Of a DNA stretch of 28,206 nucleotides, positions 9,554-15,827 are shown one piece after another. Position numbers and translations under genes: made by a program. Origin of the DNA: a virus; the IMG/VR virus record IMGVR_UViG_3300010883_000306, positions 1 through 28,206 of that record; one strand, 5' to 3'. Under the pieces are notes generated by a model that worked only from the letters and a program-made list of their open reading frames with translations, made no database searches and was not told where the DNA came from. The stretch's first letter is position 1; every line of letters begins with the position of its first letter.

Positions 9554-9994
9554 ATGAAGAAGTTTTCAATAATGTATTTAACTGGGAAAAATAACGCAGG
9601 AGATGCTTACACCAATTTCCAATCATCGGTACTATCCGAAGAAACACAGGCAAAGATAATCGAAGAACTAAATGCCCATATTTCGGCACCACGAATGGAA
9701 GATGCTCTTGGATATGAATCACATGATGACGAAATGCCATCGGAAGATGAGCAGGAATTTTACAACATGGAAATGGAGAATCTAAAAAAAATGGATAATT
9801 ATAAAAAAATTCGTGAAGCGTTTAAAATAGTAAGTTGTTTTGCAGATATTCGCATTGGTAATGGGGAGATGGATTCTGTATTAGAAGTACATGATTTGCA
9901 CACTGCTAATACAGTACTACATGCCATACAAATCCTTGAAAGTTTTATTTTAGAAGATTTGGAAGCACTTATGGAGAATCTAAAAAACAAATAA
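9554..9994 (+). CDS. Acidic hypothetical protein (146 aa)
   Basis: The product is strongly acidic in its centre (residues 56-76, HDDEMPSEDEQEF...) and helical elsewhere, with short KKM/KKI basic patches. Small acidic early phage proteins are often DNA mimics or inhibitors of host enzymes, but nothing here identifies a target. The stop and the next start overlap (TAATGG at 9992), so it is translated together with the DNA methyltransferase; an anti-restriction role would fit that pairing and is only a suggestion. Confidence 0.6.
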   Translation: MKKFSIMYLTGKNNAGDAYTNFQSSVLSEETQAKIIEELNAHISAPRMEDALGYESHDDEMPSEDEQEFYNMEMENLKKMDNYKKIREAFKIVSCFADIRIGNGEMDSVLEVHDLHTANTVLHAIQILESFILEDLEALMENLKNK

Positions 9995-10653
9995 TGGTTA
10001 AATGCTTGACAGGAGTAGACCATCAAAAAAATCAATTTATCCTCGGGGACTGCATGGAAGTGATGTTGTCCTATCCTGACAACTATTTCGACTTGGCTAT
10101 TGTAGACCCTCCTTATGGAATATCTATTAACATGAATATGGGAAGACGGAAGGGGGCTGAGAAAGTATTTGTCGATAAAAAATGGGATGAGTCCCCTCCA
10201 TATGAAGAGTACTTTGCTGAACTTTTCAGAGTGAGTAGGAATCAGATTATTTGGGGAGGTAATTATTTTCCATTGCCCCTGACTAAGTCGTGGATATTTT
10301 GGGATAAGGATGTTCCTTTGGGGGTTAGTTTCGCTGATGGGGAATTGGCGTGGACATCATTTGATAAGACTCTTGTAAAAGCAAATCTGCCTTATTCGGG
10401 TTTCCGTGGGCTTGATGATGGGGGGAAAGTTCACCCAACTCAGAAACCAGTCGCGTTGTATAGGTGGTTATTAGAAAATTACGCAACCCGTACAGACAAA
10501 ATAATAGACACACATTTAGGGAGCGGCAGTAGTGCAATAGCGGCTCATTATTATGGGGTGGAGGAATTTGTAGGAATAGAGATAGATGAGGAATATTTTA
10601 ATTTAGCCCAAGACAGATTTATTAAAAGAACAAGGCAATTAAAGCTGTTTTAA
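9994..10653 (+). CDS. DNA adenine methyltransferase (beta-class type, orphan)
   Basis: The 219-residue product has motif IV IVDPPYG (36-42) before motif I DTHLGSGSSAIAAH (172-185), with HPTQKP (147-152, motif X-like) in between. This order defines beta-class amino-methyltransferases, and DPPY favours N6-adenine over N4-cytosine. VEEFVGIEIDEEYF (189-202) supplies the SAM-binding acidic residue. The target-recognition part lies between motifs IV and X. No restriction endonuclease gene is adjacent, so it is an orphan enzyme, probably used to evade host restriction or to mark phage DNA. It is coupled to the acidic protein gene upstream. Confidence 0.88.
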   Translation: MVKCLTGVDHQKNQFILGDCMEVMLSYPDNYFDLAIVDPPYGISINMNMGRRKGAEKVFVDKKWDESPPYEEYFAELFRVSRNQIIWGGNYFPLPLTKSWIFWDKDVPLGVSFADGELAWTSFDKTLVKANLPYSGFRGLDDGGKVHPTQKPVALYRWLLENYATRTDKIIDTHLGSGSSAIAAHYYGVEEFVGIEIDEEYFNLAQDRFIKRTRQLKLF

Positions 10654-12430: not shown

Positions 12431-12934
12431 ATGATTGAAATAAAAACAAGTGCGTATTGGAATAGAGAAGTTAAGAGCCTAGTTAATGATAATAAAGCGG
12501 TAGCGGTTGGAATTACTAGATACCCCCCTAAGTATGAATTAGGGTACGAATTATCGGGAGTTATAAAAGAATTAGCCCCTACATCAAGGCTGTTGTATTC
12601 TAACTCAGGTCAAGGACAATTTAAAAGATTGTTTTTTGAGGAGTTGAAGGTTAATTGGTCAATGGCAGAGAACAAGCTAATTGATTTGTCGGAAAGGTTT
12701 TCGGGCAAAACAATATTTTTATTATGCTATGAAAATATATTAAAATTGCCAGTTGAGGATAATTGGTGTCATAGGATAATGGTTGCTGATTTTATTAAAT
12801 CTATCCCCGACAGTTCCATGAATTACCAAATCGAGGAGTTACGGTTGAAAACATACACAAACACACTTAAAGAAATTAAGCCGCAAATAGCGGAACAGAA
12901 AACATGTAAAGACATACAATTAGGGCTTTGTTAG
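12431..12934 (+). CDS. DUF488 family protein
   Basis: The 167-residue product carries the DUF488 pattern: GITRYPPKYELGYEL (27-41), KELAPTSRLL (46-55), QFKRLFFEEL near 63-72, and the terminal signature KTIFLLCYEN...NWCHR (93-98, 97-102, 111-115). DUF488 proteins have no established reaction; the conserved Cys of LLCYE and CHR suggest a catalytic or metal site. I have the impression of similar GITxxxPKxxLGYEL proteins in phages encoded near DNA-modification genes. The stop (12932-12934) directly abuts the putative TTG start of the Mom-like fusion, implying coupled translation. A role in preparing or editing the modification is inferred. Confidence 0.8.
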   Translation: MIEIKTSAYWNREVKSLVNDNKAVAVGITRYPPKYELGYELSGVIKELAPTSRLLYSNSGQGQFKRLFFEELKVNWSMAENKLIDLSERFSGKTIFLLCYENILKLPVEDNWCHRIMVADFIKSIPDSSMNYQIEELRLKTYTNTLKEIKPQIAEQKTCKDIQLGLC

Positions 12935-14296
12935 TTGGTATTTAAGGGTTCGATACCCGCCGAGTTAAAATTTTTGATTAGTGAAATCACTGATAATTGG
13001 GACTCAGGTTTGGTTAATGTAGGGTTTTCGGGCAATTTCACAATCGAACGTGTACTGTCCCAAAAAAACAGATTTCAATTTTACGGTAATGATGTAACTA
13101 TTTTCTCGTGTGCGATTGGTAGATATTATGCGGGTCAAGATTTAAACATTTCATTACGGGATGAGTTTAGGGGGTCTTATGGTTTTATTGAGAAGCATTT
13201 AAAAACTCGTGAAGGGGCATTGGCTACCATTTTGCTTTGCTCCAAGATGCTCCAGTTTGGGCATATATCGAATAGTGAGAGTAAGTTAAAAAACAGGTAT
13301 TACGACAGATTGCAGAAAGGGTATTGTAATAATTGGGATGATTTAATATCGAAGACATCGGCTAAAATTACATCAGCAGATTTCATCCTGCAAAATTTTG
13401 AGTCGGGTGACGTTGTGGATTGGTGTGATAGTTTGCCGACGGATTCCCAATTTATTTCGTTCCCTCCTTTTTTTAGTGGGGATTATAACGAACAGTTTAA
13501 ATCTGTGGCGGATATTTTTCATTGGGATGAGCCTGATTATTCCGAATTTAATGATGAGCGTAAGGTAAAGATGATTGAGAAAGTTCAGACGTTCAGACAT
13601 TGGCTGATAGGTTCCCATATAAAGCAACCCGAATTAAAAGATAATCTGAAGGGTCTTGTAAGGGCAACTAATCGGGGTGCAAGTATTTATATTTATGGGA
13701 ATACTGATAGCGATACCAAGCTAGTATCGCCATTTCAAAAAACGGAACCTATGGGCATCCCCCCCATGATGGAATATGATGAAATTGGGGATGATGTAAA
13801 GGTATTTAAGATTACTCTTGAGCAGTTTTACGGATTACGGTCTCAATATATGAATCATAATATAGTTGTCGGGCAGGCTTCCAATGCTTGGTTAGTAGTT
13901 TCTAATAATAAAATAGTCGGGTGCTTCGCAATATTATCCGAAATGTCGCGGAGTGTCCCCGCCCTATTGCCATCACCTACCGTGTACTTACTTTCAGATT
14001 TTGCGGTAAATACTAGCCAATATAAGAAGTTGTCAAAACTGGTTTTAATTGCTTTACTCAGTAAGGAAACTAAATTAATGATGCAGGATATTTTCAGTCA
14101 ACGGATAATGAGTACAATGACTACCGCTTTTGCGGAAAATTCCACCAGTATGAAATATAGGGGGTTGTTTTCCTTATTGTCTAGGAAGGAAACAACGCGT
14201 GACCAAACGGGAAAATACCAACTCCAATACGGAGCATCTTTGGGGCAATGGGATTTAAAAGAAGGATTAGCACTGTGGAAGAAAAATTATCTTTAA
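12935..14296 (+). CDS. Fusion of D12-methyltransferase-like and Mom-like (GNAT-fold) domains; probable adenine hypermodification enzyme
   Basis: Residues 1-290 resemble D12-class adenine methyltransferases: VGFSGNFTIERVL (29-41) takes the place of motif I, GNDVTIFS (51-58) the acidic SAM-binding strand, and SFPPFFSGDY (175-184) the catalytic DPPY region. The Asp of DPPY is missing, so it may bind DNA or adenine without methylating. Residues 305-420 resemble the GNAT-like Mom of phage Mu: VGQASNAWLVV, IVGCFAIL, YLLSDFAVN (351-359), KLVLIALLSKE, TAFAENSTSMKYRGLFSLLSRK (398-419). Mom makes N6-carbamoylmethyladenine, which blocks restriction. Phage proteins of this kind are often labelled antirestriction adenine methyltransferase. 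The start is TTG directly after the DUF488 stop with a weak SD, so expression is probably controlled; a Com-like protein is encoded at 17096. Confidence 0.75.
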   Translation: MVFKGSIPAELKFLISEITDNWDSGLVNVGFSGNFTIERVLSQKNRFQFYGNDVTIFSCAIGRYYAGQDLNISLRDEFRGSYGFIEKHLKTREGALATILLCSKMLQFGHISNSESKLKNRYYDRLQKGYCNNWDDLISKTSAKITSADFILQNFESGDVVDWCDSLPTDSQFISFPPFFSGDYNEQFKSVADIFHWDEPDYSEFNDERKVKMIEKVQTFRHWLIGSHIKQPELKDNLKGLVRATNRGASIYIYGNTDSDTKLVSPFQKTEPMGIPPMMEYDEIGDDVKVFKITLEQFYGLRSQYMNHNIVVGQASNAWLVVSNNKIVGCFAILSEMSRSVPALLPSPTVYLLSDFAVNTSQYKKLSKLVLIALLSKETKLMMQDIFSQRIMSTMTTAFAENSTSMKYRGLFSLLSRKETTRDQTGKYQLQYGASLGQWDLKEGLALWKKNYL

Positions 14297-15189
14297 ATAT
14301 TAATACTAAAATCAAAACGATGAACCCTATGGATTTGAAACTACTAAAATCCAATGCCCGATATATGCGGCATGAGCAATTTCAATTACTTGTCGATAAT
14401 GTCAAAAGGGATGGGAAATTAACTAGCGTTCCGTTCGGGGCTATTAATGAGGATGGGACATACACAGTCCTTTCGGGTAATCATAGGGTGATGGCGGCTA
14501 TTGAAGCTGAACTTGATGAAATCGAAATCATGGTTACGGATGATGAATTAACAGAAAAGCAGAGGTTGGCAATACAGCTTTCCCATAATTCTATATCGGG
14601 TCAAGATGACCCCGATGTATTGAAAGAATTATATAAAAGTTTGAATGATGTTGATTGGCAAATATACTCAGGTTTAGACGATAAATCCCTAGAAATGATT
14701 GAAGCGGTGGATGCCTTGTCTTTCAGTGAATCAACCTTAAAATTCAGAACAGTAACATTATTATTTTTACCCGAAGAAATAGAAGAAGTTGAGTCCGCTT
14801 TTAAAGATGCAAAGGAATTGATTAGTACCAATTATTGGTGGCTTGCGAATATGAAACAATACGACGATTACCTAGATTTAATTAGGGGGACACAGCATTC
14901 AACGAACGTTTCTAATATAGCGACTGGGCTGATGACTATATTAGAGGTTTTTAAAAAGAATGTTGCACAGTTATCCGACGAATGGATGCCCGAAGAAAAT
15001 TTCAGCCCATCTAAAACCGTGCCTTTAATCTCCATATTCGGGAATGATACTATACCATCAGAATTAGGTAGACGGTTAAACAAGGTTACTGATTCAATGG
15101 TAAGTAAGGGATTGATAGAACCTTTCCAAAGGCATATGGCTCTTGATGTTATGATATGGTCATGGGAAGAACTTAATAAGCGGGGGTAA
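14275..15189 (+). CDS. ParB/sulfiredoxin-fold domain protein
   Basis: Residues (counted from the GTG at 14275) include SNARYMRHEQFQLLVDNVKRDG (26-47) and TVLSGNHRVMAAIEA (64-78), the ParB N-terminal fold with its GxHR motif. This superfamily includes CTP-dependent partition proteins, sulfiredoxins and nucleases. The C-terminal 180 residues are helical and unknown. GTG 14275 is chosen because AAGGA lies eight bases upstream; an ATG at 14248 has only a distant GGAG. The gene overlaps the Mom-like gene by 22 bases, and its last codons form the 5' acceptor strand of the downstream tRNA. The linkage suggests a role in the modification process, such as ATP/CTP-dependent DNA tracking; this is inference. 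Confidence 0.78.
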   Translation: MEEKLSLNINTKIKTMNPMDLKLLKSNARYMRHEQFQLLVDNVKRDGKLTSVPFGAINEDGTYTVLSGNHRVMAAIEAELDEIEIMVTDDELTEKQRLAIQLSHNSISGQDDPDVLKELYKSLNDVDWQIYSGLDDKSLEMIEAVDALSFSESTLKFRTVTLLFLPEEIEEVESAFKDAKELISTNYWWLANMKQYDDYLDLIRGTQHSTNVSNIATGLMTILEVFKKNVAQLSDEWMPEENFSPSKTVPLISIFGNDTIPSELGRRLNKVTDSMVSKGLIEPFQRHMALDVMIWSWEELNKRG

Positions 15190-15255
15190 CTCAGCATGCA
15201 GAGTGCTTGGATACCATCCAAGAAGTCGCGGGTGCGAATCCTGCCCCCCGCTCCA
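15180..15255 (+). tRNA. tRNA-Gly(ACC) with an altered elbow; candidate non-translational glycine carrier
   Basis: A complete cloverleaf is readable. The acceptor stem is GCGGGGG/CCCCCGC (7 perfect pairs), the D stem ACTC/GAGT, the anticodon stem CTTGG/CCAAG with loop ATACCAT (anticodon ACC), the variable loop AAGTC, and the T stem GCGGG/CCTGC with one G-U; U73 and CCA are encoded. U8, A14, G15-C48, G19-C56, U33, A37 and A58 are conserved. Bacterial GlyRS identity elements G1-C72, C2-G71, G3-C70, C35, C36 and U73 are all kept. Oddities: the D loop is AGCATGCA, so G18 is U; the T loop is TGCGAAT, so U55 is G; base 10 is A; and A34 is rare for bacterial Gly tRNAs. Its 5' end overlaps the ParB-like stop codon. 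Either a GGU-decoding tRNA or a glycine donor for the adjacent Mom-like enzyme. Confidence 0.88.
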
Positions 15256-15272
15256 AAGAATTGGGGTTTAAG

Positions 15273-15827
15273 ATGTTACAGCAAACGGGAATAGAATCGT
15301 GGACACGTCAGCCCAACGAAAGCCCTCCCGCATTCCAAGCCTTTGTAGTATATCGAGATTTAGGACTGGGAATGAGAAGTAATGCAAAGGTTTCACGGGA
15401 GTTAGGTAAATCCGTTACTTTAATGAATCGTTGGTCTAGTCGTTGGGATTGGGTTAAGAGAGTTGCACGTTACGATGAAGAAATTGATAAGCAAATAAGA
15501 GAACGGCATATTAAAGAATTGTATGAAGCAAGGGATAGACATGCTAACCTGTCGCGACTTTTGCAGACGAAATTCCTAGAAAGGTTAAGGGATTTATCAG
15601 TTCAAGATATCCCAGTTGTGGCATTAGCCAATATTTTAAAGGTGGCTACGGATGTCGAGTTAAGAGCATTGGGTGAGGCTACGATAAAAACAGAGCAAGA
15701 AATTACTGGTGCGGATGGCGGGGCGTTTAGGATTTCAATCGATGAATTAGCAAAGTTAGCGGAACAAAATGGTTATATTGAACAAGACCCCACAGGAAAC
15801 AGTCTTACAGAGTTTGCAGAATCCTAG
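15273..15827 (+). CDS. terS: Terminase small subunit-like protein
   Basis: The product (184 residues from the ATG at 15273) begins with a phage terminase small subunit pattern: ESPPAFQAFVVYRDLGLGMRS (about residues 16-36), then ELGKSVTLMNRWSSRWDWVKRVARYD, a helix-turn-helix suited to binding the packaging site, then a long helix and an acidic tail. Small subunits recognise the DNA and regulate the large subunit ATPase and nuclease. An open frame with a TTG start at 15207 lies inside the tRNA and is rejected. The SD is weak (GGGG). It overlaps the terminase large subunit gene by 59 bases. Confidence 0.78.
   Translation: MLQQTGIESWTRQPNESPPAFQAFVVYRDLGLGMRSNAKVSRELGKSVTLMNRWSSRWDWVKRVARYDEEIDKQIRERHIKELYEARDRHANLSRLLQTKFLERLRDLSVQDIPVVALANILKVATDVELRALGEATIKTEQEITGADGGAFRISIDELAKLAEQNGYIEQDPTGNSLTEFAES

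Follow-up and report, generated by a model that had tools for sequence, protein, structure and literature searches.

A candidate phage DNA-modification enzyme, predicted to join Dam-like and Mom-like domains and coupled to a tRNA gene

What does a phage gain from a protein that appears to join an adenine-methyltransferase domain lacking its catalytic residue to a domain resembling the Mom transferase of phage Mu? The question was raised by an open reading frame (ORF) in an IMG/VR virus record (IMGVR_UViG_3300010883_000306, positions 1 to 28,206), the whole 28,206-base stretch of which is referred to here as the window. A first-pass annotation, made from sequence alone, described a fusion of an inactivated-looking adenine methyltransferase, with a motif-I-like GFSGNFT and FPPF in place of DPPY, to a C-terminal half following the Mom/GNAT pattern. 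It proposed that the first domain could serve for adenine flipping and target recognition, and that the protein would be a two-domain variant of the single-domain Mu Mom. That observation is borne out by the present analysis. The ORF is open for 453 codons from a TTG that follows directly on the stop of the upstream gene, and it carries GFSGNFTIE at residues 30–38 and FPPF at residues 176–179. The features of the locus are as follows.

12431..12934 (+), DUF488-N3-like protein of 167 aa, ending directly before the fusion gene (PF22751, E 2.8e-6, 28.1 bits against a cut-off of 27)
12935..14296 (+), DAM-like-GNAT fusion protein of 453 aa, TTG start
12941..13762 (+), N-terminal domain of predicted Dam fold (D12-like), residues 3–276 (PF22555, E 2.1e-67)
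13028..13048 (+), motif I-like SGNFTIE, residues 32–38
13460..13471 (+), FPPF at the DPPY position, residues 176–179, the site of intein-like inserts in four relatives
13790..14287 (+), C-terminal GNAT domain, residues 286–451 (PF22559, E 3.3e-46)
14120..14164 (+), conserved TTAF...SMKYRG segment, residues 396–410
14248..15189 (+), ParB-like partner gene, 313 aa, overlapping the fusion gene (phrog_7405, E 1.9e-70; ParB_N, E 4e-4, below the Pfam cut-off)
15180..15255 (+), tRNA-Gly (anticodon ACC) with encoded CCA and T-loop GTGCGA, overlapping the last 10 nt of the ParB ORF

The similarity to the two Pfam families, DAM-like-phage1 (PF22555) and GNAT-phage-like (PF22559), is far beyond chance, with scores of 227.7 and 157.6 bits against curated cut-offs of 27. 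Both families are already listed in Pfam without a named function, and PHROG 7858, of unknown function, covers the full length of the protein. The fusion itself is not new to databases, but literature searches found neither the origin of the two Pfam families nor, in the papers examined, a description of the family's function or of the couplings described below.

Full-length homologues were found in 13 of 50,697 phage records (Gordonia 5, Mycobacterium 8), at 34–37% identity. Further scans gave 70 viral loci, 80 by the C-domain (partly the same contigs), 63 in bacterial genomes, and 32 near FP_Brigit. In all, 238 loci (numbered here with the prefix L) hold a member of at least 380 aa, of which 180 are distinct by their last 380 residues. 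The first alignment used 63 of these; later ones held 53 (A2), 24 each (A3 and A4) and 14 (A5). Among the 63, motif I is nearly invariant, the second Pro of FPPF is present in 63 of 63, and T396, K407, Y408 and R409 of the C-domain are invariant. This conservation, together with a constant partner gene, rules out a decayed gene.

An AlphaFold2 model built on the 53-sequence alignment had a pLDDT of 90.9. VIA-align placed its N-domain with E. coli Dam (2g1p, Z 13.6, 4.3 A, 196 residues), T4 Dam (Z 13.2) and DpnM (Z 12.9), and its C-domain with Mu Mom (8bv8_A, Z 11.0). The N-domain shares with these DNA adenine methyltransferases the order of motif I, helical insertion and motif IV, but not their sequence profile. 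The D12 family (PF02086) was not listed at E up to 1 for the window protein, nor for FP_Brigit, L073, L253 or L247, and HHalign of the N-domain to the single T4 Dam sequence gave no signal (0.4%). A profile search of the PDB returned only chance-level hits.

At the position of the DPPY Asp, the 180 distinct relatives have F in 119, Y in 33, N in 24, H in 2, S in 1 and I in 1; Asp is present in none. With no D12 profile hit, an ordinary methyltransferase is rejected as a full account. The loss is not uniform, however. In the window's branch the acidic residue of motif I is also gone, whereas the 24 N members (23 NPPT and one NLPT) mostly keep a canonical EPxxG motif I such as VEPCAGAFAMS. In a tree of 76 rows, the 13 N members taken form one side of a branch with 100/100 support. 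SAM synthetase is encoded near the fusion gene at L258 (2918–4096) and ten other loci, almost only in this branch (10 N, 1 other by neighbourhood), and in whole records it is found in 6 of 20 N-branch members against 0 of 35 others. These records are close relatives, so this is weak evidence, but the N-branch may still bind SAM while the window's branch has moved away, and 'inactive' does not describe the whole family. A separate N6/N4 DNA methyltransferase with an intact DPPY lies upstream in the window at 9994–10653 (PF01555), so the phage may also methylate its DNA. Four relatives (L053, L236, L244 and L254), in records that include Micromonospora, Planctomycetota and Pseudaminobacter, carry an intein-like insert within or right after the FPPF/FPPT motif, a kind of place that inteins favor.

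The C-domain folded alone (pLDDT 92.3) has Mu Mom as its top VIA match (8bv8_B, Z 11.4, 3.5 A, 144 residues), but this is tied with the ordinary GNATs 1y9k (11.3) and 2bsw (11.2), and no Mom appears among the 50 rows of the Foldseek list for this domain; Mom comes first only in the VIA comparison. The SxtA methyltransferase-GNAT didomain (7uci) is also among the matches (Z 9.8). SxtA, a polyketide loading enzyme, likewise has a methyltransferase next to a GNAT-like domain, but it has no known Dam relationship, ParB or tRNA. HHalign of the C-domain (179 sequences) with 17 Mom proteins gave 87.9% (E 3.2e-6) over 77 columns of the first half of the domain, against 0.7% with 22 PF00583 GNATs, a heterogeneous control taken from 30 fetched loci; Mom against those GNATs gave 0.2%. 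An earlier alignment with Mom (80.9%) was out of register in its second half, and residue-by-residue equivalence with Mom is not claimed. The protein does not hit Pfam's Mom family (PF25680), where Mu Mom scores 253 bits. H58, Y59, E108 and D149 are invariant in 17 of 17 Mom proteins, but no His is found among the invariant columns of 24 C-domains, so the His-Tyr pair of Mom has no counterpart there. The C-domain is Mom-like in predicted fold, yet outside the Mom family. The interpretation given in the first-pass annotation is in this respect only partly supported: the Dam-like and GNAT folds and the missing Asp hold, base flipping by the N-domain remains conjecture, and the ParB partner and the tRNA, which change the likely chemistry, were missed.

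The acyl-CoA motif [QRK]xxGx[GA] is absent from the beta4-alpha3 loop in 63 of 63 relatives, whereas 17 of the 22 control GNATs have it somewhere; it was found in only 2 of 17 Mom proteins. A Mom-like DNA modifier that takes its group from a small metabolite, be it acyl-CoA, SAM-derived or other, is compatible with the predicted folds, the profile similarity to Mom and the SAM synthetase genes of the N-branch, where a SAM-linked chemistry is possible, and Mom has been described as moving an acyl group from an acyl-CoA such as glycyl-CoA (PMC7824862). In that case the tRNA described below would be carried for another reason, such as supplementing translation of late genes. The absence of the P-loop motif speaks against this reading, which is considered unlikely.

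A possible link to amidoligases was also examined. The top hit of the model in the viral structure library (BFVD) was A0A8S5SJK3 from Siphoviridae sp. ct4Uy2, a 695-aa protein annotated as an amidoligase, which aligned over both domains (E 1.7e-24, 466 columns) and hints at an amidoligase-DAM-GNAT fusion. PHROG 2443, which shares the C-domain, supports this for that domain. However, 24 amidoligase loci, fetched after 59 of 291 genomes of a Clostridia-type class gave a match, showed no DAM-like or GNAT-phage-like ORF.

It became apparent that the gene belongs to a module. A ParB-like gene follows in 177 of 177 distinct relatives with at least 1 kb of downstream sequence; by locus the count is 232 of 232, of which 225 start within 300 nt or overlap. 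The ParB profile was built from hits in the same loci. A DUF488-like gene lies close by in 65 of 180, in both branches, mostly within 300 nt upstream, and a gene cluster whose representative is a terminase large subunit is found in 95 of 180 loci, mostly downstream. A PAPS-reductase-like gene is near the module in 7 of 180 loci (L243, 4730–5719, and six others). ParB-superfamily proteins accompany other DNA modification systems. The ParB-like ATPase DpdB is paired with DpdA (PMC12839542), although that enzyme is a TGT homologue of different chemistry and no tRNA gene is named in that account. ParB folds are fused to DNA methyltransferases in phages and to DUF488 in archaea (PMC12704722).

A tRNA gene is near or on the locus in 126 of the 180. 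ARAGORN applied to the 180 loci (2.06 Mb) found 111 tRNAs: 79 Gly, 14 Lys, 7 undetermined, 7 Leu, 2 Met, 1 Glu and 1 Pro; in the tally that also covered the control loci, the label '???' was counted with Gly. A covariance model built from 46 of the tRNA-Gly, searched only against the 78 loci without an ARAGORN call, found 26 more loci. Of the 126, 118 have the tRNA within 1 kb of the module, with distances resting on an assumed gene start of stop minus 458 codons, and 92 of 93 Gly/Lys tRNAs are on the gene's strand. By neither method was a tRNA found in the other 54, of which 53 belong to the F/Y branch and 4 have under 300 nt upstream. In the F/Y branch the ARAGORN isotype by the module is Gly. 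In the N-branch 23 of 24 have a tRNA: 14 Lys by ARAGORN, six more whose anticodon was read from the sequences as CTT, and three exceptions, L316 with a TCC (Gly-like) tRNA, L309 with a tRNA-Pro and L291 with an undetermined one. The isotype is not perfectly tied to the branch. A tRNA-Leu(GAG) gene also occurs kilobases upstream in L217, L223, L224, L225, L236 and L252.

The tRNA-Gly of the window, called by ARAGORN, scores 70.9 bits with the covariance model, but it is one of the sequences from which the model was built. The listed start of the terminase small subunit (15207–15827, TTG at 15207) lies inside this tRNA, and the true start is probably further downstream. Likewise, in Taptic (NC_070935.1) the annotated start of the fusion gene at 51258 overlaps the tRNA-Gly at 51204–51277; the real start is probably after the tRNA. 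The authors of the Taptic genome noted its lone tRNA-Gly and a ParB homologue without a ParA partner, without linking them (PMC5356062).

Many temperate phages integrate at tRNA genes and many phages carry tRNAs, and the gene could be an attachment site or an ordinary translation supplement that happens to lie by the module. This is very unlikely. Place and strand are fixed, Taptic has the tRNA but no integrase predicted by its authors (PMC5356062), and no tRNA was found in 32 Mu-like Mom loci, 24 amidoligase loci or 30 GNAT loci. Two hits were found in 14 diverse Mom loci.

The bases that these tRNAs keep are also informative. In 46 aligned tRNA-Gly, pairs 1-72, 2-71 and 3-70 are G-C, C-G and G-C in 46 of 46, while the other four acceptor pairs vary with 19 to 28 two-sided changes each; U73 is invariant. 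These are identity elements of bacterial tRNA-Gly, read by glycyl-tRNA synthetase. The alignment holds 46 of 50 sequences thinned from the 79 found by ARAGORN; four (L032, one of two in L124, L112 and L137) were left out by hand, without a formal criterion. C35 and C36 are also fixed, but partly by construction, as ARAGORN names Gly by the anticodon. Among the 79, the wobble base varies (TCC 51, ACC 15, CCC 12, GCC 1), GG is present in the D-loop stretch of only 39, and the T-loop is standard in 50. This is what one expects of a tRNA kept for charging more than for decoding, and it resembles the dedicated, non-translational tRNA-Gly used for peptidoglycan in staphylococci. A small-metabolite donor does not explain why one isotype sits at one place, tracks the enzyme branch, drifts in its decoding features, and recurs at loci with Mom and ParB.

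Those loci are three. Microbacterium phage Antuna has ParB, Mom and tRNA-Gly side by side. Arthrobacter phage Sonny has ParB two genes before Mom and, at the 3' end of Mom, a tRNA-Gly-like gene missed by ARAGORN (53.8 bits). It was then predicted that Wyborn, which has ParB beside Mom, would carry such a gene, and it does (55.7 bits); Lifes and BarnCat, with Mom but no ParB listed beside it, have none. The tRNA is present in 3 of 3 Mom loci with ParB, but Sonny and Wyborn may be related, so these are two or three independent cases. The other hits among the control loci were a tRNA-Trp about 1 kb from a Mom homologue in Methylophilales phage Melnitz-2 (L328, 492–564) and a second, weak hit in Antuna (22.2 bits).

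Could the enzyme act on tRNA rather than DNA? GNAT toxins of the TacT/AtaT2 type acetylate glycyl-tRNA (PMC9241777; PMC7470980), and the isotype follows the enzyme branch. In this view the GNAT domain would modify charged Gly-tRNA, or the methyltransferase-like domain would modify the tRNA, and the phage tRNA would be the substrate, a decoy or a shield. This is unlikely. The closest solved folds of the N-domain are DNA adenine methyltransferases, the acetyl-CoA P-loop [QR]xxGx[GA] that such acetyltransferases need is absent at its place in 63 of 63, the constant partner found is ParB-like, where these toxins have a DUF1778-type antitoxin, and the same kind of tRNA accompanies Mom, a DNA modifier.

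The best-supported reading, held with moderate confidence, is that the locus is a phage DNA-base modification module with aminoacyl-tRNA as the donor. The analysis itself establishes the anatomy of the fusion, the folds (from models), the absence of the catalytic Asp and of the acyl-CoA motif, the ParB-like partner, and a usually adjacent tRNA gene whose isotype tracks the enzyme branch, Gly for the F/Y-PPF branch and mostly Lys for the NPPT branch. The chemistry is inferred from these features alone: the donor, the base, the product and the benefit, as well as DNA binding and base flipping. In this model the host glycyl-tRNA synthetase would charge the phage tRNA-Gly, the Dam-like domain would bind DNA, serve for target choice and present a flipped base, probably adenine, and the GNAT domain would move glycine, or lysine in the sister branch, onto the amino group of the base. 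The ParB-like NTPase would load or clock the complex on DNA just before packaging, and the product would shield phage DNA from restriction, as Mom does. There is precedent in GNAT-fold enzymes that take an amino acid from charged tRNA, such as FemX, and Orf11 with Gly-tRNA (PMC12945691). However, FemX-type enzymes have two GNAT domains and act on peptidoglycan precursors or antibiotics, whereas here one GNAT domain is fused to a Dam-like fold. The 54 loci without a detected tRNA would have to use host Gly-tRNA, the Mu Mom loci have no tRNA nearby, and the fold matches to Mom are tied with ordinary GNATs.

The Mom base, a glycinamide derivative of adenine, is an isomer of N6-glycyl-adenine, which makes the parallel with Mom pointed. 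A further possibility, more tentative and somewhat less likely than not, is that phages carry a tRNA-dependent DNA aminoacylation system, in which a dedicated, non-translational tRNA-Gly (in one branch tRNA-Lys) donates its amino acid to a DNA base through the Dam-like-GNAT enzyme and the ParB-like NTPase, and that Mom itself may draw its glycine-like group from Gly-tRNA in the same way. Such a system would be of a new kind. Charged tRNA serves as a donor for proteins, peptidoglycan, lipids and antibiotics, but no case is known for DNA, and literature searches listed none. Cultured carriers exist in Gordonia phages Clawz, Soos and Sting, Mycobacterium cluster W and Faecalibacterium FP_Brigit, and, for Mom, in Arthrobacter phages Sonny and Wyborn and Microbacterium phage Antuna. 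If true, this reading adds a donor class to DNA modification, gives a reason for some phage-borne tRNAs, and offers a direct test of where the glycine-like group of Mom comes from.
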